NCBI RefSeq assembly: GCF_019890615.1
Contig: NZ_JAINVZ010000004.1
Coordinates: 186,001 to 250,000, forward strand
Origin: Streptantibioticus parmotrematis
Lineage (GTDB): Bacteria; Actinomycetota; Actinomycetes; Streptomycetales; Streptomycetaceae
Length of the DNA stretch: 64,000 nt
Direction of reading: 5' to 3'
In this document: piece after piece, positions 1 through 9,622 of the stretch
How the letters are laid out: each line of letters begins with the position of its first letter
Position numbering within the stretch: position 1 is the first letter of the stretch
Notes under the pieces: generated by a model
What the model was told of the DNA's origin: nothing
The model's input: only the letters and a program-made list of their open reading frames with translations
Databases searched by the model: none
Program-made: the position numbers and the translations under genes

Positions 1-96
1 ACGGGAAACGGCGCTCCGCGATGTCCGTGTGAGTGCAACCGAACAGGGTTCTGCGGCGGCTGCGGACACGCCGGATGCGGCGGACGCCGCCGCTGA
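1..96 (+). CDS. C-terminal end of a small Cys-rich protein (partial)
   Basis: The first reading frame is open from the window edge to a TGA at 94-96. It encodes a tail with six cysteines and one histidine in CPCEC, FCGGCGHAGC-type spacing, ending in Arg residues. Small Cys-rich, probably zinc-binding proteins of this sort occur among the minor genes of Streptomyces integrative elements. The start is outside the window. The open stretch is only 31 codons, so chance is possible, but the Cys/His spacing argues for a real gene. Confidence 0.4.
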   Translation, partial: TGNGAPRCPCECNRTGFCGGCGHAGCGGRRR

Positions 97-114
97 GCAG
101 CACCTCACACCACC

Positions 115-140
115 GCGCCCCCGGCTCGCGCCGGGGGCGC
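115..140 (+). terminator. Hairpin before the gene at 178
   Basis: An 11-bp perfect GC stem with a TCGC loop and no T-run. It sits about 38 nt upstream of the next start codon, like the other hairpins in this element, and may be a terminator or an attenuator. Confidence 0.45.
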
Positions 141-177
141 ACCCATACGCGACAGCGCCATCTTGGAGACCAACCCC

Positions 178-804
178 ATGACCCACTCTCGCGGAGTTCA
201 GCACCTCGCGGACGAACTCGGCGTGGAGGCCGAGCACGTCGCCCGCGCTTTCCGCACCGCATCCCACGCCCACGCGGCCATACGCGCGGTGAAATACACG
301 CACCTGACCGATGAGCAGTTCCGCCGGCTCATCGACAACGACCGCTACACCATCGCCGTCGTCGCCAACCTGGCCATGCGCTTCGCCGGACGCACCGAGG
401 ACGCACGCCTGCTGACGGACATCTACAAGGCCGCCTCAGGCAAGACCGCCCACCGCCCCGTCATCCGCCGCGGCGTCGGCACCCTGCGCGACCACCACGA
501 CCACGACGTGGTCCAGCAGGCCATCCGCATCCTGCAGGCGGCCGGTCTGCCGCCCATCGAGACCGACGGCACCCGGGCCCTGCGCGACGGATTCCAGGTC
601 CTGCCCGGCTGCGACGAACTCCCCGGCTGGGTGTTCATCGCCCCCGACCCCGACTGCGCGCACCGCGGTGGCTTCGCCGGAGGCCGCGACGGCTATCCGA
701 CCGTCATGAAGTGGGCCGGATGGGGCGTCATCCCCGAACCGCTCGCCGAGGGACTGTTCGCCGCCGTTCACCCCGACCACCGGGACCAGCCCTTCCCCTC
801 CTGA
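178..804 (+). CDS. Hypothetical element protein, 208 aa
   Basis: I do not recognise a named family. The ATG at 178 is preceded by GGAG about 9 nt upstream; a TTG 15 nt earlier overlaps that ribosome site and is less likely. The N-terminal half is helical and soluble-looking (residues about 5-90). The C-terminal half has several His, Cys and Trp residues (GWVFIAPDPDC and GRDGYPTVMKWAGWG regions). There is no signal peptide or membrane segment. It is the first complete gene of the element segment, and its position among single-gene units separated by hairpins suggests an accessory function. Function unknown. Confidence 0.7.
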   Translation: MTHSRGVQHLADELGVEAEHVARAFRTASHAHAAIRAVKYTHLTDEQFRRLIDNDRYTIAVVANLAMRFAGRTEDARLLTDIYKAASGKTAHRPVIRRGVGTLRDHHDHDVVQQAIRILQAAGLPPIETDGTRALRDGFQVLPGCDELPGWVFIAPDPDCAHRGGFAGGRDGYPTVMKWAGWGVIPEPLAEGLFAAVHPDHRDQPFPS

Positions 805-813
805 CCCACCTCG

Positions 814-843
814 CGGTCGGCGCGCTCACCGGCGCGCCGGCCG
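814..843 (+). terminator. Intercistronic hairpin
   Basis: An 11-bp stem (CGGTCGGCGCG pairing with CGCGCCGGCCG, one G-U pair) with an 8-nt loop, between the genes ending at 804 and starting at 867. Confidence 0.4.
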
Positions 844-866
844 CCCTCCCGAAAGGCTCTCCGCAC

Positions 867-1166
867 GTGAAGTTCCCGGTCGACGACACCATGCTCACCG
901 CCTGGTCCACCCTCCTCGGCCTGACCGACCAGCAGCGCGACGACGTACTCGGCGAGATCGAAGCCACCCTGCGCCGCGGCTACACCCTGCGCCCACTCGC
1001 GATACGCCACCTCTCCTTCGAGCAGGCGACCGCCGACATGGACCCCGACGAACTCGCCCTGATCTTCCTGGAGACCGGCCTGCGCCGCGCCGGGCACCCG
1101 GACGCGGCCGACGCCGTACTCCGCCGCGGCCTCCTCGCACAACTCCACGCCGCACACGCCGACTGA
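867..1166 (+). CDS. Hypothetical small element protein, 99 aa
   Basis: Start chosen as GTG 867 because GAAAGG lies about 10 nt upstream; the frame is open further upstream but has no ribosome site there. The product is acidic and helical, with a DQQRDDVLGEIEATLRRGY segment and a leucine/alanine-rich C-terminus, and has no recognisable domain. Hairpins flank it on both sides, so it may be a monocistronic unit. Function unknown. Confidence 0.6.
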   Translation: MKFPVDDTMLTAWSTLLGLTDQQRDDVLGEIEATLRRGYTLRPLAIRHLSFEQATADMDPDELALIFLETGLRRAGHPDAADAVLRRGLLAQLHAAHAD

Positions 1167-1191
1167 CCTGCACCCCACTTCCCATCACTCC

Positions 1192-1225
1192 GCCGCCCCG
1201 GCCGCGCACCGCGCACCGGGGCGGC
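1192..1225 (+). terminator. Intercistronic hairpin
   Basis: A 10-bp perfect stem (GCCGCCCCGG with CCGGGGCGGC) and a 14-nt loop in the gap between the genes ending at 1166 and starting at 1255. No T-run. Confidence 0.45.
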
Positions 1226-1254
1226 CCCATGCGCGCAGAAAGGTACGCAGACCG

Positions 1255-2271
1255 ATGTCCACCGACGACGTGCCATTCCTCCCACGGGCGGCCACCGTCA
1301 CCACCTCGCGCACGGCGCCATCCTGGGCCAAGAAGACCCCGCCCGCGCCGAAGGCGTCCGCACGGCCAAGGGTCACCGCACGGAAGTTCAACGCGCCGCG
1401 CGATCCCCACGAGCACGCCCGCAAGATCGCGGAGAATGTCCTCGACGCCTGGTACCGGTCCTTCGGCGGCAGCAGCATCGACATCCCTCTCGGCACCGTC
1501 GCCGGGCTCTCCCTGCTGCGCAACGTCCCCGGCCTGGCGGACTGGGTGCTCAACCTCCAGCCCGAAGAACTCCCTCAGCTGCTCAAGGAGATCTACCTCG
1601 GACACTGGATCAACCGCCCCGATCTCATTAACCGAGCGATACGCCTGCACGACTGGGCCTGGAACCCCGCCCCGGACAAGCAGCAGCTCCGCGCAGTCCA
1701 CGCCGTCGCCTGCGCGGCCATCGACACCGGCTTGCTCGACCTCACCGGCCATGACGACCCAGGGCAACGCTCCGAGGCCGACGTGCTCAGCCCGCTGCTC
1801 ACCGGCCTGCGTCACAAGAGCGACAAGAAGTGGCGGGGCGAGTACCACACGCCGGCGTCCGTCACCGACCTGATGGCCAACGTGACGGTGGACAAGGAAG
1901 TCGTCAAGCCCGGGATGGCCTTTCGCGAACCCGCCGTCGGCTCCGGCGGCATGTTCCGCTCCGTAGCCCAGCGCCTGCGCGAACTCGGCCTCAGCCCGCA
2001 CGACTTCCACTGGTACGGCAACGACATCGACTCGCTGTCCGCTGGGTGCGCCGCCGTCAACACGATCATCTGGGACCTCGGACCGCGCTGCCTCATCGGC
2101 TGCGCCGACTCCCTCGCACCGGAAGACGACTACGCCAAGACCCGCGCCGAAGCAAGGGACGCGTTCGACCAGCGCGACCGGTACATGGACACGGCCCGCA
2201 CGATCATCGCCCACCGCCGCGCCCTCAGACTCCTCGACGACCTCATGCCGAGCAAGGAGCCGGTCGCGTGA
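1255..2271 (+). CDS. N-6 DNA methylase-like protein lacking an obvious catalytic motif
   Basis: The 338-aa product resembles the core of type I-style N-6 adenine methylases. Around residues 200-240 it has the HTPASVTDLMA segment typical of the start of the methylase core. That is followed by FREPAVGSGGMFR, equivalent to SAM-binding motif I, and then a YGNDID acidic segment. The usual NPPF/NPPY motif IV is not visible, and the protein ends about 80 residues after the acidic segment, so it may be inactive or work in a shortened form. GAAAGG precedes the ATG by about 12 nt. It overlaps the next gene by 4 nt (GTGA), which implies translational coupling. Similar short methylase-like proteins occur on Streptomyces integrative elements. 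Confidence 0.7.
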   Translation: MSTDDVPFLPRAATVTTSRTAPSWAKKTPPAPKASARPRVTARKFNAPRDPHEHARKIAENVLDAWYRSFGGSSIDIPLGTVAGLSLLRNVPGLADWVLNLQPEELPQLLKEIYLGHWINRPDLINRAIRLHDWAWNPAPDKQQLRAVHAVACAAIDTGLLDLTGHDDPGQRSEADVLSPLLTGLRHKSDKKWRGEYHTPASVTDLMANVTVDKEVVKPGMAFREPAVGSGGMFRSVAQRLRELGLSPHDFHWYGNDIDSLSAGCAAVNTIIWDLGPRCLIGCADSLAPEDDYAKTRAEARDAFDQRDRYMDTARTIIAHRRALRLLDDLMPSKEPVA

Positions 2272-2795
2272 CCCCGCCCGAGGCCTTCGACCGGCCCGGC
2301 ACCACCCCCGCGATCCGCCGCCGACGCCCGGCCTTCGTCAGGCGGAGCGACGAGATCGAGGTGCCGCCCCTCGATGAGATCGCGCCCGCTCTCGAACCCC
2401 CCTGGCACAAGGAGGGCACCGACACCCCCGACCGCACCGTGGTCTATCGCCATCCCGACGGCCACCGTATCGGCCTGCGTCTCCAGGCCCGCGGCCTCGC
2501 CATCCAGGCCTGGATCACCGCGGGCCCCGACCTGCCGCCCATCTCCGGCGGCACCGCCGCAGAGTGCGCCGAAGCACAGGCCGCCAACGACGCCCGGCTC
2601 CAGCCCGGCCGCACCTGGCACGCCGTACTGATCACGCGCACCAGCAACAGCCTGGTCGCCGACCTCGCCGCGCTCGTCCGCGAACGGCTGCTCCCCGCCC
2701 TCACGAACAAGCCACGCGGCATACCCGCCCCGCCTCCACCCGCCCGCATCGGGCAGCCCGAGATCACCTCGCAGAAGAAGGAAACCCAGAAGTGA
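2268..2795 (+). CDS. Hypothetical element protein, 175 aa
   Basis: The GTG start at 2268 overlaps the stop of the methylase-like gene, and its own stop overlaps the start of the DUF4192 gene, so the three are probably one translationally coupled unit. A Pro/Arg-rich N-terminus (residues 1-50) is followed by a compact alpha/beta-looking region and a Pro-rich, Lys-ending tail. No domain recognised. Cytoplasmic by composition. Confidence 0.65.
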   Translation: MTPPEAFDRPGTTPAIRRRRPAFVRRSDEIEVPPLDEIAPALEPPWHKEGTDTPDRTVVYRHPDGHRIGLRLQARGLAIQAWITAGPDLPPISGGTAAECAEAQAANDARLQPGRTWHAVLITRTSNSLVADLAALVRERLLPALTNKPRGIPAPPPPARIGQPEITSQKKETQK

Positions 2796-4438
2796 GCACG
2801 TCCAAGAGCACCGTCCAGGTCACCAGCCTGGCCCATCTCGCCGAGATCCTGCCGTACCTCCTCGGCCACTACCCCGACGACAGCATCACCCTCCATACCC
2901 CCGGCCCGAACTTCCTCGACGGCGTGACCATGACGTTCCCGCTGCCCGAGGACCCTACCGAATGGCGGGCCACAACCGAGATCGCTGCCCGCCAGTTCGC
3001 GGCCTACGCCCACGACGAAGGATGCCGCCCCGACGAAGACGTCATCGTCTACCTCTGCCGCGAACCGCGCCCCGGCCAGACCCCATGGGACACCGCCGCG
3101 CTCCTCGCCCCGCTCACCGACTGGCTCACGCCTGTGCTCGCGGAGCATCGCACCACCGTTCTCCAGACGATCGGGCTCGTGGCGAACCGGTGGTGGGCGT
3201 ACGAGTGCCACATCGAAGGCTGCTGCGAGGGCGAGCCGCTGCCATCCCCCGACGATCCCACCAGCATCACCGCTCAGATGGTTCGCCTCGGCCGCACCCT
3301 CGGCCCCCGTACCCGCGACATCGTCAAGGAGTTCCGGGCCACAGCCGACTCCGACTTCCTCAAGGAACTGCACACCGCCGTCGGCCACTTCAACGCGCGG
3401 TGCGCGACCAGCGCCGGACGCGACGCGACCCTCGCGCAGACGCTGAACCAGATCGGCTCCGCCATAGGCAGGTTCCGCGACGGGGACAGCGTCCTCAGCC
3501 GGGCGCTCACCACGCAGCTCATCGTCGGCTTGCGGGACGACGCCGCGGCGGAGGCCGGAATAGCCCACGCGGAGGACGACGACCTTCCCCACGCCCGACG
3601 CCTGTGGGCCTACCTCGCCCGCCACTGCGCCGCACCATTCACGCGGGAGGCCGTTCCCATCCTGACGCTGTACGCCTTCGTCGCCTGGCGCCAGGGCGAC
3701 CTCATCGCGGCCCGGCTCGCCCTGCGCGACGCCATCACCACCGACCCGGACTACGAACTGGCCACCGGCATCCACCTCGCCACCCTCGACGGCGAAGACC
3801 CCCGTACGTACCTTGCCTCCGCGCGTGAGGACCTCGCCCACCGCCTGACGTACCTCCAGCACGCTGTTGAAGCCGCCAGCGAGTACCGCCCTATCGCCGA
3901 CGCCACTGCCGCACGCCACAGCGAAGCCCTCGACGCGGCCACCGCCGACTACTTCGTTCAAGCCCTTACCGAACGCGGACGAGTCCTCGCCTCCCACGGC
4001 ACCATCGACATCATCGACGAAGCCCTGGCCGACTTCCGCAACGGGCGACCTCAGCTCGTAGACGAGGTCGCTGCCCGCATCACCCTCGGCCTGCAAGACT
4101 GCGAGACCCGGGACGCCGCGCTGTCCACCTGCGAGGAGAGCGAACTTCCTTACGAACGGCAGCTGTGGGGCTACCTCGCCCGGCGCTGCGTACCGCCCCA
4201 CACCGACAAAGCCCCGCCGCTCCTCACCCTCCTCGGCTGGGTCGCCTGGCGGCAGAACGACACCGTCACCGCCAGCCATGCCCTGGCCGACGCACTCGGC
4301 ATCGATCCCGACTACAGGATGGCCAAGGTACTGCTGCACGCCATCCGCGCCGAGTGCGATCCGGCGCGGTTCCTGGCGATATGCCGCGAGGAGGCGGACC
4401 GATTCGCCGCGAGCCGCGCGGATCTCGACACCCTCTGA
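2792..4438 (+). CDS. DUF4192 family protein with a duplicated C-terminal domain
   Basis: The GTG at 2792 overlaps the previous stop (GTGA). Residues about 7-130 match the start of the DUF4192 family (SLAHLAEILPYLLGHYPDDS). DUF4192 proteins are common in actinobacteria and have no defined function. The family usually has one C-terminal TPR-like helical domain and about 350-400 residues; this one has 548. The C-terminal unit is present twice, at about residues 240-350 and 425-540. Both copies show LW-x-YLAR, then a L-x-W-x-AWRQ-x-D segment, then a DPDY motif. The duplication probably arose within the gene. No secretion signal. Confidence 0.8.
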   Translation: MSTSKSTVQVTSLAHLAEILPYLLGHYPDDSITLHTPGPNFLDGVTMTFPLPEDPTEWRATTEIAARQFAAYAHDEGCRPDEDVIVYLCREPRPGQTPWDTAALLAPLTDWLTPVLAEHRTTVLQTIGLVANRWWAYECHIEGCCEGEPLPSPDDPTSITAQMVRLGRTLGPRTRDIVKEFRATADSDFLKELHTAVGHFNARCATSAGRDATLAQTLNQIGSAIGRFRDGDSVLSRALTTQLIVGLRDDAAAEAGIAHAEDDDLPHARRLWAYLARHCAAPFTREAVPILTLYAFVAWRQGDLIAARLALRDAITTDPDYELATGIHLATLDGEDPRTYLASAREDLAHRLTYLQHAVEAASEYRPIADATAARHSEALDAATADYFVQALTERGRVLASHGTIDIIDEALADFRNGRPQLVDEVAARITLGLQDCETRDAALSTCEESELPYERQLWGYLARRCVPPHTDKAPPLLTLLGWVAWRQNDTVTASHALADALGIDPDYRMAKVLLHAIRAECDPARFLAICREEADRFAASRADLDTL

Positions 4439-4447
4439 CAGCACCAC

Positions 4448-4484
4448 GGTGGCCCCGGCAGTCCGTCATCTCGCCGGGGCCACC
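4448..4484 (+). terminator. Intercistronic hairpin after the DUF4192 gene
   Basis: A 12-bp perfect stem (GGTGGCCCCGGC with GCCGGGGCCACC) and a 13-nt loop, starting 10 nt after the stop codon and ending 22 nt before the next ATG. Confidence 0.55.
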
Positions 4485-4506
4485 CCGACCCGAAAAGCGC
4501 CACATC

Positions 4507-5091
4507 ATGACCACCCCATCTCGCGAACCTCGCGGTGCCGTCGCCCGCCACACCGCCTACCTGACCCAGTTCTGGGACAAGACCAAGGACTCCCGCCCCA
4601 CCTGGCACATCGACTGGGGCCACGCCGGCTTCGACATCCACACCCCGCCCGAGCCCACCTCCGGCCACCGGCCCACACTCCTCGCCCGCTCCTGGGAGCG
4701 ACCGGCCCCCGACGGCTCCGGCGAGACCTGGTCCTACCTCCACCGCGGGGCCTGCCTCGGCTGCACGTGGGAAGGCCCCAACCGGCGCGGTACGGACGAA
4801 GCCATCGAAGACGCCCACGACCACAGCCACCCCGGCTGGCGCGCGCTCCCCGCCGTCCTCGAACGCCGAAGCCGGCACTGGTTCACCCATGTCCAACGCC
4901 TCTACCCGGCGGGCTGGTTCGACCGAGGCGGTCCCATCCGAACCGTCCGCACCGGAATCGAGAAGCAGCACAAGCCCGGAGCAGCACCTGGCGGCGGCTA
5001 CGACCTCGCCACGCAGGCCCCGGAGCGACAGCGGCGCACGGCCATCGCCGAACCTCTTCCCCTGGACGCCAACGAACCCGAGGCAGCGTGA
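4507..5091 (+). CDS. DUF6349-like element protein, 194 aa
   Basis: ATG 4507 follows a hairpin. The protein has Trp/His-rich segments (WHIDWGHAGFDIH; CLGCTWEGPNRRG; HDHSHPGWR) typical of a small Streptomyces family I know as DUF6349, often carried by integrative elements. It has two nearby Cys and several His residues that could bind metal. It overlaps the HTH gene by 4 nt. Function unknown; the family name is from memory. Confidence 0.65.
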   Translation: MTTPSREPRGAVARHTAYLTQFWDKTKDSRPTWHIDWGHAGFDIHTPPEPTSGHRPTLLARSWERPAPDGSGETWSYLHRGACLGCTWEGPNRRGTDEAIEDAHDHSHPGWRALPAVLERRSRHWFTHVQRLYPAGWFDRGGPIRTVRTGIEKQHKPGAAPGGGYDLATQAPERQRRTAIAEPLPLDANEPEAA

Positions 5092-5519
5092 ACTGCATGG
5101 ACTCGATCTCCTGGCTTCGCCCCGAATACAAGGGCCGCGAAGACGAACTGATCAACCTCGCAGCCGGAGCGGACCTCGTAGGCGTCACCCGATCCGCCGT
5201 CAGCAACTGGACCAAGCGTCACGCTCACTTCCCGAAGGTCGCTCTGCTGACCGGCATCGGCGACCGGCGCAACAAGTACGTCCCCCGTGACGAGTTCCTC
5301 GCCTTCGCCCACGCACAACTGACCAAGAAGCGCACCTCTACCGGCAGATCGACACCTCGTCGGCCCACCACAGCCATACGCGCCGCCGAAGTCGCCCACT
5401 CCGAACGGCAGATAGTCCGCCTCACTGAACTGGAGACGCGCCAGGCAGCGGCCCTCGCGAGCACCCGTCGTGTGCTGAGAGAGCATCGCAAGACCCTCAA
5501 GCGTGCCCGCCAGGGCTGA
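5088..5519 (+). CDS. Small helix-turn-helix protein of the element
   Basis: The GTG start overlaps the preceding stop (GTGA); an in-frame ATG four codons later is an alternative. Residues about 20-50 (AGADLVGVTRSAVSNWTKRH) read as a helix-turn-helix with a clear recognition helix. A further DNA-binding-like segment (GIGDRRNKYVPRDEF) and a basic, Arg/Thr-rich helical C-terminus follow. It is the last gene before the attachment site, so an excisionase-like or regulatory role is possible, but no integrase is adjacent. Function otherwise unknown. Confidence 0.65.
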   Translation: MNCMDSISWLRPEYKGREDELINLAAGADLVGVTRSAVSNWTKRHAHFPKVALLTGIGDRRNKYVPRDEFLAFAHAQLTKKRTSTGRSTPRRPTTAIRAAEVAHSERQIVRLTELETRQAAALASTRRVLREHRKTLKRARQG

Positions 5520-5928
5520 ACGCCGAGATCGCAGAAGTCCGCCGTCTCGAAGACACCGAAGGCACGTGCGCGGGCTCTACCCCGCCACTCGACGGAGCGG
5601 GGGGGTACGCTATGAGGACGCGGCAGACCTGCGAAATCGGTCAGTGGCTCGGCCCCGGGCACAGGGGCTTCTGAGCCCCCGCTTCCCCAAAGGGACTTCG
5701 GTGCTCACAGGAACGCGCAGGCCGTCTGAGCTTCGGCGACTTCCAGCACACCCCATCCTCCGGCCTGGCGCGGCCTGCTCTGGGAACGTGGTGGGAACAG
5801 AAGGACGGAGAAAGGCCGGGAAGGATCTGGACAGACCGGGCCTTCGCTGCACCCAAATACCTCACTGACCTGCGAAAACAGGGAATGGTCGGGCCGTGGC
5901 AGGATAGATCAGTGAGCTTATGATCATG
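5520..5928. other. Gene-free end of the element
   Basis: No convincing coding region. The 11-mer GACCTGCGAAA occurs at 5626 and again at 5867, the second 52 nt before the tRNA fragment. Such repeats could be recombinase arm sites or chance. The last 60 nt are relatively AT-rich. Confidence 0.5.
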
Positions 5929-5973
5929 CTCCTAAAGCGGGTGTCGCAGGTTCGAATCCTGCCGGGGGCACCA
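5929..5973 (+). other. 3' fragment of tRNA-Arg(CCT): attachment-site core
   Basis: The sequence runs from the anticodon loop (CTCCTAA, anticodon CCT) through the 3' anticodon strand, variable loop, T-arm (GCAGG-TTCGAAT-CCTGC) and acceptor strand to CCA. The 5' half is missing: the bases before the loop do not pair with AGCGG, and no GCCCCCG acceptor strand is found upstream. This is what tyrosine integrases leave at the distal end of an element inserted into a tRNA 3' end. A rho-independent terminator follows at once, so the fragment marks the old chromosomal tRNA end. Confidence 0.8.
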
Positions 5974-5977
5974 GGCG

Positions 5978-6011
5978 AAAGGCCCCGGACCGATCGTGGT
6001 CCGGGGCCTTT
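5978..6011 (+). terminator. tRNA-type rho-independent terminator
   Basis: An 11-bp perfect stem (GGCCCCGGACC with GGTCCGGGGCC) extended by AAA/TTT pairing, directly after the tRNA fragment. It would have ended the original tRNA-Arg transcript. Confidence 0.8.
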
Positions 6012-6143
6012 GACATCCAGGTCTGACATCAACGCGGGCAGGTCTGACGTCAACGTGGGCGGCCTACGACGACTACACCGGGACTTTGTCGGTTGAGCGG
6101 CGCCGCCAGGCTGGGGAAAGATGCCCGGCAGGGGGTGAGCCGT

Positions 6144-6653
6144 GTGGGTGACGCAACCAGGGACGAGACGATCCAGCGGCTCCGGGTACTGGGGCACTGG
6201 CGCGCGTTCGGTCGGCATGTCCCCTCGAACGAACTCATCCAGGCAGGTCTGGACGCGCTCCTGGCCGGCGTCGACTCCCCTTCGCTGCTCCTGCTGGCCG
6301 GCCTTGGACGTCGGGAAGAGCACGAGGCGCAGGATCTCTTCGATCGCGCGTTGGAGGAGCTGGACTTCACCTTCGAGGTACCGGCCGACCCAACCGCCGC
6401 GAAGCTGGCCATGGCTTACTGGTTGGCCGAACAGATCGCGAGCGGAACCATGGACCCGGCGAAGGGCGCAGACCTCATCTGGAGGGAGGTGGCCTGGGAT
6501 CTCGGGTACCCGGATGAACTCCAGCCGATCGTTCAATGCGCCATCCTGATCGACGACTGGGACGAGCACTGGGGCGTACCACTCGAAGAATTGCGGAGCA
6601 AAGCCCTGAACGCGGCCCGACAGCTTGCCACCCGGAACGGCCGCGCCACCTGA
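6144..6653 (+). CDS. Hypothetical acidic protein, 169 aa
   Basis: Start GTG 6144 was chosen because an AGGGGG stretch lies about 8 nt upstream; an upstream TTG at 6093 has no ribosome site. The product is acidic, helical and cytoplasmic. Features include an LRVLGHWRAFG segment, a long helical middle (ALDALL, EEHEAQDLFDRALEEL) and a DDWDEHWGVPLEEL C-terminal segment. No family recognised. It lies just outside the attachment site, so it could be original chromosome or cargo of an earlier insertion at the same tRNA. Confidence 0.6.
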   Translation: MGDATRDETIQRLRVLGHWRAFGRHVPSNELIQAGLDALLAGVDSPSLLLLAGLGRREEHEAQDLFDRALEELDFTFEVPADPTAAKLAMAYWLAEQIASGTMDPAKGADLIWREVAWDLGYPDELQPIVQCAILIDDWDEHWGVPLEELRSKALNAARQLATRNGRAT

Positions 6654-6739
6654 CGCCCCCCGCTCTGTACTTGCGAACGGAGCGAGGCACCGGATCGACC
6701 ATGACCCGGTGCCTCGCTCACCGTTGACGTCCTCAGGCT

Positions 6740-6853
6740 TCAACCGCGGCCGGTTCGCTTCCTGAGCAGGCGGTCCAGGTGGCTGACCTCGCACTGTGTG
6801 TCCTGGACGATGTGCGTGTACACGTCCATCGTGATGCTGATCCGGCTCCTGTT
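6740..6853 (-). pseudogene. Remnant of a tyrosine integrase C-terminus
   Basis: On the minus strand, about 35 codons ending at 6740 read RISITMDVYTHIVQDTQ, then a VSHLDRLLRKR segment. This is the C-terminal end of Streptomyces phage/AICE-type tyrosine recombinases, and the Tyr in MDVYTH would be the nucleophile. Upstream codons show no integrase similarity, and one residue seems lost in the tail compared with typical relatives. Only the last fragment of the gene remains. Confidence 0.65.
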
Positions 6854-7019: not shown

Positions 7020-7211
7020 TGGCTGACTCATGGTCAGCAGGTCGGCCAACAGCTACTTGACCATCGGCATCGCGCAGACCATCTCGGGCGAAAGCCGACG
7101 TGCCTTCAGGAGTGCGTTGAGGGCCTCGTTCGTCTGGCGGTGCTGGGCATGTGCGCGGGCGACGTCGAGGTGGAAGCTGGTCTGCCGCTCGGAGGGCAGT
7201 GGCGAAGCCGC
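7020..7211 (-). pseudogene. Remnant of an XRE-family regulator C-terminus
   Basis: Minus-strand codons below 7211 read SERQTSFHLDVARAHAQ, then a NEALNALLKARRLSPE segment. This matches the TPR-like tail of Streptomyces XRE regulators. An in-frame TAG at about 7053 interrupts it, after which LLADLLTM continues the expected pattern. The N-terminal DNA-binding part is absent; upstream of 7211 the sequence switches to a carbonic anhydrase remnant on the other strand. Decayed and truncated. Confidence 0.55.
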
Positions 7212-7212
7212 C

Positions 7213-7380
7213 AGGTCACTGCCCGGCGACCAGGTGGACAACACCGTCCGCGCCCAGATCCGGTTGACCGTCCGGCAACTGCGGTGCGATCCGCTCCTGG
7301 CCCCCTTGGAGGCGCAGGGCCGCATGCACGTCGTCGGTGCCTACTACAGCCTCGACTGCGGGACCGTGGACTTCCTGTGA
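7213..7380 (+). pseudogene. Remnant of a beta-carbonic anhydrase C-terminus
   Basis: The codons before the TGA at 7378-7380 read GDQVDNTVRAQIRLTV, then HVVGAYYSLDCGTVDFL. This is the C-terminal end of bacterial beta-class carbonic anhydrases. The zinc ligands and the rest of the enzyme are missing. The fragment abuts the XRE remnant at about 7212, so a deletion or rearrangement joined them. Confidence 0.6.
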
Positions 7381-7393
7381 CGTGCCACGCACC

Positions 7394-7427
7394 GGGGCCC
7401 GCCCACGCCGACGCGTGGACGGGCCCC
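7394..7427. terminator. Bidirectional hairpin before the sedolisin 3' end
   Basis: A 14-bp stem with one mismatch (GGGGCCCGCCCACG with CGTGGACGGGCCCC) and a 6-nt loop. It lies between the plus-strand remnant and the minus-strand peptidase and can serve both directions. Confidence 0.6.
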
Positions 7428-7477
7428 TCAGGAGCGCCGCAGAAGACGACGGCCGAAGGCCGCCCTCGTCGGTGCGA

Positions 7478-9622
7478 CTACCAGCCGAACGACCTCAAGT
7501 ACGCGCCCGTCGGCGAGCCCACGCCCGTGGCGTCGTCGTAGCCGCGGACCGCGTTGAGGGTGGTGTCCTGGCCGAAGGCGACCAGGCGGACGGCCAGGGT
7601 GCCGTTGACGACGCCGAAGTCGGCGACGTTGCTCAGCGGGGCCTGGTGGTGGGCGGCCTGCTGGTCGATCACGTCGCGGAAGAGGCCGAGGTGGTCGCGC
7701 AGGTAGATCTCCGGGTCGGCGAAGCCGATCGCGTGGTGCTGGGCCTGGATCGCGTCGGCCTGGACCGCGGCGAACTCGGGCGACGCGACGCTCGTGCCGC
7801 CATAACCGCCCTCGCTGTAGACGCCGTTGACCGTCTGGCCCACCAGGACCGAGGTGTACAGGTCACCGTTCATCGCCACGTCCGGCGTGACGCGCTGCGC
7901 GGTCTTGCTCTTCGCGCCCGTCATCAGGGTGTGCGACAGCGAGTTCGGCACGGTGCCGACCTGGTACCACGGCTGCGTGAAGTCCTCGCTGGTGCCGCCA
8001 CCGCCGCCGAAGTAGAAGTTGCCCGGCAACGGGTTCCAGCTCTTGCCGTCCGCGGACAGCGAGGAGCGCAGCGTGCCCATGTCGGTCTCGAAGCCGTACG
8101 AGCCGCTCTTGTCGGCCAGCCCCAGCGCGGTACCGCCGACCGAGGTGACCCACGGGTCGCTGGACGGGTACTGGTCCTGCGCACGCGAGGTGTCCGCCTG
8201 GCAGTTGACGCCGGTGGCGGCGGCGGTCGGCGAGTCGTCGCCGCAGTCGCCCGCGGAGAAGTTGAAGCCGATGCCCTCGGCCGCGCCCTGCTCGAAGACC
8301 TGCTCGTACGCCTGGATCTGAGCCTGCGTCATGTCACCGGCGTCCGTGGTGTGCATGACCTCGCCCCACGAGTCGGTGACGACGTCGGCGAGGTGCTTGT
8401 CCACGATGGTGGTCAACGCGCCCAGCAGGTCGGGGTCGTTGCAGGAGTTGGCGCCGACGTAGACGACATCGGCGTCCGGGGCGAGCCCGTGCACCATGTC
8501 GACGTCGAGCGACTCCTCGCTGCTCCAGTCGCCGCACGCGGACTGCGAGTTCCACTGGCTCGGCGTGACGACCTCGGTGTACTGGCCGGAGCGGAACGCC
8601 TTGTCGCCGTGGTTGGTGGCGAACTTGTTGGCGTCCGCCAGCATCGTCGGCGACGCGTAGGCGTCCACGATCGCGACCTTGACGCCCTTGCCGGTCAGGC
8701 CCGTGCCGCTGATGCCGTACGCCTTGCGCAGCTGCGACGGCACGAACGAGCACTGGTCGAACGGGACGGCCTTGTTGACGTAGCCGTTGGGCGCGCCGGT
8801 GGCGGTCTTCTGGCCCCAGTAGTCGGAGCAGGTCGCCGTGGTGGGCAGGCCGTCGGCCGGCTTGGCGGCACCGCCCGCGGTGGCCGGGGTGACCGGGACG
8901 GAGTCCGGGGTGGCGTGCGAGGCGGCCGGCGAGGCGAGGCCGACGACGCCGAGGACCGCTGAGGAGACGGCGGCCGGCACGGTCACGTCACGCGTCGGGG
9001 CGTGCAGCAGCGCGCCCTTGACCCGGTACTGGTCGATGCCCGCGCCGAACGCCTTCTTCAGCGCGGAGTTGGTGCCCTTGACCGTGAGGGCGTGGTCGGT
9101 TGCCTGGGTGATGCTCAGGCCCGCGCCGGTCAGCCACTGGCGCACCGCGGCGACCTGCGCCTTGGTCGCGCCGTAACGGGCCTGGTACTGCGCCGGGGTG
9201 AGGAACTTGCCGTAACTGGCGCTGCCCGGCTGGGAGACCGCCTTCGCGTACGCGGCGAGCCCCGAGGGGTTCTGCCCGGCGAGGTAGACGGTGCCGGTGT
9301 ACTGCGTGGCGGCGGAGGCGGCGCCCGCGTCGGCGGCGGGCGTGGCCCACGAGGGGTGGCTGCCGGTGACGGTCTTGGCACCGGAGACGGGAGTGGCGGC
9401 CTGCGAGGGGACCGCGAGCATCAGGGAACCGGTGGCCAGGGTCAGCGAGGTCACCGCGACCGTGGCTATGCGGGCCCGCTTGGCGAGGGTGTGATGTCTG
9501 CCGGAAATGACGACTCCAACTGGCGATGCGTATACGGGATACGCGGGATGTACGGAGGAACTGATCGGCCGTGCGCACAGAGGTTCGTCCGCGGCGGACG
9601 GCGGACCGTCCCACGCGGGCAT
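7478..9622 (-). CDS. Secreted S53 (sedolisin/kumamolisin-type) peptidase
   Basis: The gene encodes a pro-sedolisin. A signal peptide (KRARIATVAVTSLTLA core, then SQAA) is followed by an activation prodomain with AVSQPGSASYGKFLTPAQY. The catalytic domain contains EESLDVDMVHGLAP (Glu and Asp of the triad), SAGDCG (oxyanion Asp) and GGTSVASPEFAAV (nucleophile Ser). Sedolisins are acid serine proteases, secreted and self-activated. The ATG at 9622 has no ribosome site and puts about 40 residues before the signal peptide. An ATT at 9508, five nt after GGAG, gives a normal signal-peptide start and may be the true initiator. Likely monocistronic. Confidence 0.93.
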   Translation of the reverse strand: MPAWDGPPSAADEPLCARPISSSVHPAYPVYASPVGVVISGRHHTLAKRARIATVAVTSLTLATGSLMLAVPSQAATPVSGAKTVTGSHPSWATPAADAGAASAATQYTGTVYLAGQNPSGLAAYAKAVSQPGSASYGKFLTPAQYQARYGATKAQVAAVRQWLTGAGLSITQATDHALTVKGTNSALKKAFGAGIDQYRVKGALLHAPTRDVTVPAAVSSAVLGVVGLASPAASHATPDSVPVTPATAGGAAKPADGLPTTATCSDYWGQKTATGAPNGYVNKAVPFDQCSFVPSQLRKAYGISGTGLTGKGVKVAIVDAYASPTMLADANKFATNHGDKAFRSGQYTEVVTPSQWNSQSACGDWSSEESLDVDMVHGLAPDADVVYVGANSCNDPDLLGALTTIVDKHLADVVTDSWGEVMHTTDAGDMTQAQIQAYEQVFEQGAAEGIGFNFSAGDCGDDSPTAAATGVNCQADTSRAQDQYPSSDPWVTSVGGTALGLADKSGSYGFETDMGTLRSSLSADGKSWNPLPGNFYFGGGGGTSEDFTQPWYQVGTVPNSLSHTLMTGAKSKTAQRVTPDVAMNGDLYTSVLVGQTVNGVYSEGGYGGTSVASPEFAAVQADAIQAQHHAIGFADPEIYLRDHLGLFRDVIDQQAAHHQAPLSNVADFGVVNGTLAVRLVAFGQDTTLNAVRGYDDATGVGSPTGAYLRSFGW

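Follow-up and report, generated by a model that had tools for sequence, protein, structure and literature searches.

The tRNA-Arg(CCT) fragment and its intact counterpart

The window analysed here is a stretch of 64,000 nucleotides on contig C34 of genome G000. Close to its left end, 43 nt exactly repeat the 3' half of a tRNA-Arg(CCT) gene, from the anticodon loop to C74. The tRNA fragment starts with CTCCTAAAG in the anticodon loop and ends with GGGGGCACCA, and on the contig the 43 nt correspond to C34:191929-191971. Since ARAGORN called no tRNA gene in the window, the fragment lacks the tRNA 5' half, as had been stated in the original prediction. The positions of this fragment and of the features around it are listed in Table 1.

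Table 1 Features around the tRNA-Arg(CCT) fragment (positions are those of the window)
Feature	Position	Strand	Basis
Prophage right end	1-5928	+	Between both core copies; gene models and family scans; 5598-5928 in a stretch matching the corresponding part of the G200 prophage at 75%
Last prophage gene, HTH protein like an excisionase or transcriptional regulator	5088-5519	+	phrog_66, E 1.9e-5; HTH_17, E 0.0026 (below the Pfam cut-off)
Predicted attR core	5929-5971	+	Exact copy within the intact tRNA gene (C34:114289-114331)
Anticodon loop CTCCTAA, likely strand-exchange region	5929-5935	+	Match to the left copy starts precisely with the first base of the anticodon loop
CA, remainder of the encoded CCA end, on the host side and outside the repeat	5972-5973	+	Left copy has GA; G001 empty site has CCA
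Hairpin, most likely from the older element	5978-6011	+	Fold z -5.6; such hairpins behind the tRNA in many family loci; near-same sequence at the left end of the G200 AICE
Three TGACRTC motifs (6011, 6024, 6045), putative arm-type sites of the older integrase	6011-6051	+	Two such motifs equally far behind the tRNA in loci with an AICE integrase
Remnant of a pSAM2-type tyrosine integrase, last ~32 codons	6755-6847	-	tblastn 81% over 32 aa, E 7e-12, against the G191 integrase
Start of the chromosome common with congener G001	7384-8000		blastn 93.5% over 617 bp; 91% over 4 kb in a longer comparison

A genome search with a 165-nt query around the site located a second full copy of the core 77,640 bp to the left on the same strand, and no further full copy was found in the 7.4-Mb genome. 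When both strands of C34:98001-206000 were scanned for further core-like sites with at least 26 of 43 matches, none was found besides the two copies. A perfect repeat of 43 nt is far beyond chance. The left copy is enclosed by an intact tRNA-Arg(CCT) gene (C34:114258-114331, ARAGORN), which is the sole tRNA-Arg(CCT) gene found in the genome, the other tRNA matches that were checked having other anticodons. An intact gene had been expected to the left of the fragment, and it was thus found 77.6 kb away, that is, less than 100 kb, with the 43 nt identical and with a tyrosine integrase gene as its neighbor. The fragment had been described as a 45-nt tRNA 3' part; the start in the anticodon loop was correct, but the repeat ends after 43 nt, where CA in the window stands against GA at the left copy.

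The tRNA is restored at one end of the intervening element and a tRNA fragment is left at the other. The restored tRNA in G000 encodes a C-G-A end; CCA is encoded at the corresponding site of the congener G001 and on the host side of the fragment. A tRNA without an encoded CCA needs the CCA-adding enzyme. With CGA in place of the encoded CCA, the restored tRNA-Arg(CCT) should therefore be dependent on this enzyme in the lysogen. The CCA end was read by eye in 16 of 30 tRNA-Arg(CCT) loci, a biased count because these loci were the best matches to a CCA-ending query, and of the 12 related core-containing loci, two showed it. The hairpin 3' of the restored tRNA is derived from the element (fold z -7.6) and differs from the one 3' of the fragment, which folds at -31.3 kcal/mol. 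Neither was called by the terminator pattern scan, the latter presumably because of its short T run.

The joined flanks of the element (361 nt) matched G001, the one congeneric genome searched, contiguously over positions 1-255 at 91% identity, spanning the junction. No prophage is present at the tRNA site in G001, which represents the empty site. Left of the tRNA in the present genome, the genes at C34:98271-109934 may form a second foreign island, because they have a low GC3 and showed no match in the G001 stretch compared.

The prophage between the two cores

The DNA between the cores comprises 77.6 kb (C34:114289-191971), for which 82 gene models were obtained with a simple codon-based caller; 42 of them were scanned with Pfam, and the majority of the others carry no label. 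About 100 bp behind the restored tRNA, and convergent with it, lies the gene for a tyrosine integrase of 542 aa (minus strand, C34:114435-116063), whose frame is free of stops and which matched PF00589 (E 1.2e-15) and phrog_1 (E 9e-54). A small excisionase-like HTH gene adjoins it. Genes for terminase, capsid E, tail tube, tape measure, Dit and amidase were recognized by Pfam, and those for portal, scaffold, small terminase and minor tail by PHROGs. Starting from the integrase and the excisionase-like gene, the order is ParB-like, methylase/GNAT, small and large terminase, portal, scaffold and capsid E, followed by tail tube, tape measure, Dit, minor tail, amidase with a holin-like part, RecT, nuclease and methylase. 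Head, tail and lysis functions are all represented in the element, and no match to FtsK/SpoIIIE (TraB type) or RepSA was obtained in the 42 of 82 gene models scanned with Pfam. By its predicted gene content the element left of the fragment is a siphovirus-type prophage.

On the strength of the two cores, the intact tRNA gene, the adjoining integrase gene and the prophage between them, the copy in the window is read as the attR of this prophage, and we are highly confident that it forms the attR core of a temperate phage whose 77.6-kb genome has integrated in the tRNA-Arg(CCT) gene. The attachment site claimed in the original prediction is thereby supported by an exact direct repeat, an intact tRNA and a tyrosine integrase; the element does lie to the left, and the core length, which had been taken to fit tyrosine-integrase elements, agrees with the integrase found at the left end. 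Both ends are now fixed for a large prophage, which belongs to a phage group of Streptomycetaceae for which the phage collection searched contained no close relative.

Judged from its sequence, the prophage may still be able to excise. About 20 kb of non-structural cargo lie between the capsid and tail genes (C34:135474-155103), encoding aspartate-tRNA(Asn) ligase-like, ARMT1-like, NB-ARC/WD40, two radical SAM and cupin-like proteins as well as a 1069-aa protein with a Dsr1 match. The phage could be defective because this cargo sits within the structural region. Aldehyde-dehydrogenase-like and amine-oxidase-like genes are located on the minus strand between the large terminase and portal genes (C34:126344-129477), and a PAPS-reductase-like gene with weak similarity to DndC was found at C34:184422-185252. 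Furthermore, a fragment of a large serine recombinase adjoins the tyrosine integrase (C34:116723-117688); it contains the recombinase and zinc-ribbon domains, while the catalytic domain was not found, and it is perhaps the trace of an integrase swap.

A probable older AICE end and the proposed order of events

It had been proposed that foreign DNA stops exactly at the fragment. This did not hold: the probable end of an AICE follows, and the chromosome shared with G001 does not begin until about 7384. In the corrected reading, the window starts with 5.97 kb of phage DNA, followed by up to about 1.4 kb with old mobile-element debris. Position 8000 in Table 1 is the end of the stretch in one blastn comparison, and the G001 match runs further. 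Within the debris, about 0.7 kb (6045-6746) had no match in G001 or G200 in the flank comparison. A 169-aa open reading frame in the same region (6144-6653) had no Pfam match, and a reading frame with a weak TPR match lies between the debris and the shared chromosome (7053-7325) and is perhaps a gene fragment.

The nature of the debris is indicated by two other genomes. In G001, the same AICE-type integrase gene, which is broken, lies directly behind the tRNA. In G200 (Streptomyces sp. S.PNR 29), a 92% relative of the AICE-type integrase stands at full length directly behind the prophage attR together with RepSA and FtsK/SpoIIIE genes; 14 kb farther along, the core occurs a third time. A pair of TGACRTC motifs occurs behind the tRNA in the AICE-integrase loci L167, L168, L176, L177, L179 and L181. 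From these likenesses, the right flank appears to be the end of an older pSAM2-type AICE, of which G000 keeps only the hairpin, the repeats and about 32 integrase codons. A right-hand core of the old AICE was found neither in G000, by mismatch count over C34:98001-206000 and by exact 14-mers up to 250000, nor in 40 kb of G001. The hairpin most likely belongs to the older AICE as well. It had been taken for the tRNA terminator in the original prediction; a hairpin is indeed present behind the fragment, but its role as the native terminator is weakened, as such hairpins end AICE-type elements in other genomes. Much the same hairpin was also seen at four loci (L158, L169, L172 and L173) with no integrase found within 1.5 kb.

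The following course of events is proposed. At attL, a 3' half supplied by the phage would have been attached to the host 5' half, restoring the tRNA with a phage hairpin behind it; at attR, the displaced host 3' half would have been left behind as the fragment in the window. Strand exchange likely took place at the anticodon loop. The phage would have entered a site already holding the decaying end of a pSAM2-type AICE, so that the debris would now lie to the right of attR. Since G001 has the AICE end without a prophage, the AICE probably came first and the prophage later, pushing the AICE remains outward.

Other readings of the locus differ from this course of events in one or more steps. 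A tRNA pseudogene arisen by chance duplication, with no mobile element involved, has a probability close to nil: a fragment on its own would look alike, but this locus also has a second copy, an integrase and phage genes, the congener has the empty site, and this origin was rejected on the second full core copy, on the lack of any other site with at least 26 of 43 matches in the region scanned, and on the G001 empty site. The element on the left might also be considered an AICE or ICE instead of a prophage, as the end of an AICE adjoins the site and tRNA-Arg is a hotspot of AICEs according to the available part of PMC9513070. However, it contains genes for terminase, portal, capsid, tail tube, tape measure and lysin, and the 42 of 82 models scanned gave no FtsK/SpoIIIE or RepSA match; this reading was rejected on the phage structural genes and is very improbable. 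The AICE-type sequence directly to the right would fit with the 43-nt fragment being an attachment core of only the older AICE, the prophage having its boundary elsewhere. This is highly improbable too, because the left core copy adjoins the prophage integrase, phage-type sequence reaches up to the core through the match to the G200 prophage, and G001, which lacks the prophage, has the AICE end at its tRNA. The core would rather be the attachment core of both the prophage and the AICE, one core having been used serially.

The order of the two integrations could also be the reverse, with the AICE entering the attR copy after the prophage. Any core copy is a possible target, and the elements stand in the same order in G200. 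We nevertheless consider this order unlikely, because the decayed AICE integrase of G001 lies directly at the tRNA with no prophage, which suggests that the AICE is the older element in the genus. The locus clearly exemplifies the stacking of a prophage and an AICE at a single tRNA gene via one common core, with a fuller counterpart in another species. A further extension is improbable: with a shared core and different integrases, the prophage and the AICE could leave the chromosome together in a single circle wherever the AICE retains an outer core, as it does in G200, and the AICE could be carried in phage particles; in addition the change from CCA to CGA would make the sole tRNA-Arg(CCT) found wholly dependent on the CCA-adding enzyme.

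Known phages and relatives of the integrase

The core is 100% identical over 43 nt to the attP of the phages VWB, SF3 and OnionKnight and over 45 nt to that of RP3; attP is annotated as such in VWB and RP3 (in RP3 as the core of attP). The insertion site was therefore already known, and VWB is described as using tRNA-Arg as its attB in the part of the literature available (PMC13346255). Like the present prophage, VWB, SF3 and OnionKnight combine the identical 43-nt core with a tyrosine integrase. Their integrases are 72-76% alike among themselves, whereas those of VWB and SF3 are only about 27% identical to that of the prophage over 195-201 aa. The integrase gene lies 5' of the core in these three phages but 3' of it here, where it is convergent with the restored tRNA. 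RP3 of Streptomyces rimosus, whose attP core matches all 45 nt including the CA, also has its integrase gene on the opposite side, as read from an unannotated RP3 frame, and the 2.9 kb of RP3 sequence showed no clear similarity to the prophage integrase (30 aa, E 0.7). One site is thus used by unrelated or distant integrases.

The best capsid match in the phage collection was not VWB but ZL12, with 50% identity over the full length; its head and tail genes are also similarly ordered. ZL12 exists as a plasmid prophage, whereas the present prophage is integrated and carries cargo between its head and tail genes. The closest integrase, found among the best 80 of 570 relatives, is 83% identical and sits at the tRNA-Arg(CCT) of G200. 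The capsid (87%) and tape measure (70%) of the G200 prophage are also related, and it uses the same tRNA and the same core with the same AICE type behind; it differs in its length of 114 kb versus 77.6 kb and in its AICE with a full integrase, RepSA and FtsK-like genes.

It has been reported that AICEs accrete at a Streptomyces tRNA-Arg gene as stacked elements with identical direct repeats and an old remnant (PMC9513070, available part). The stacked elements described there are AICEs; here the newcomer at the tRNA is a prophage. The principle is already known and the prophage is ordinary in kind, while the correction of the boundary is useful. Another published arrangement, tRNA-dependent lysogeny, involves a short core of about 10 bp that does not restore the tRNA and a phage tRNA of the same isotype, as far as the accessible part of the source goes (PMC10865867); measured against that description it was ruled out, as the core here has 43 nt and the tRNA is restored.

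Integrase relatives were collected from the GTDB genome set, and the best 80 of 570 confirmed relatives were examined for a target. In 61 of these 80 a tRNA lies directly behind the integrase gene in convergent orientation, namely Met in 27, Thr(CGT) in 15, Arg(CCT) in 11, Thr(TGT) in four, Val in two and Lys in two, and no nearby tRNA was found in the other 19. Among the 11 Arg(CCT) calls, that of L090 may represent a displaced copy, its 5' half being unusual with 56 of 73 matches. Downstream of the tRNA, 11 of 21 family loci examined, G001 included, contain one or more additional copies of its 3' half with at least 38 of 42 matches. Capsid protein relatives were detected in 12 of 14 genomes tested, the best per genome being 60-87% identical, and tape measure relatives in 10 of 12. 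Moreover, integrase, capsid and tape measure lie between two same-strand core copies in four relatives, with core-to-core distances of 114.1 kb in G200, 89.7 kb in G201, 93.4 kb in G203 (88.5 kb to a nearer 40-nt copy) and 85.4 kb in G204. Neither capsid nor tape measure was found in G209 and G210, two of the 12 integrase relatives with the core, and the integrase clade is therefore not confined to this phage.

An integrase tree was built from 75 of 81 rows, six being dropped because of a frame stop before 350 aa. All Arg(CCT) rows fall in one clade of 26 rows, in a tree whose long branches leave parts unsure. The Arg(CCT) label needs seven changes, and the tRNA targets thus seem to switch. 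In the clade comprising L077-L156, several changes of target among Arg, Thr, Val, Met and Lys seem to have occurred (at least 21 label changes, with 'none' counted as a label), and the integrase is always convergent to the tRNA where one was found.
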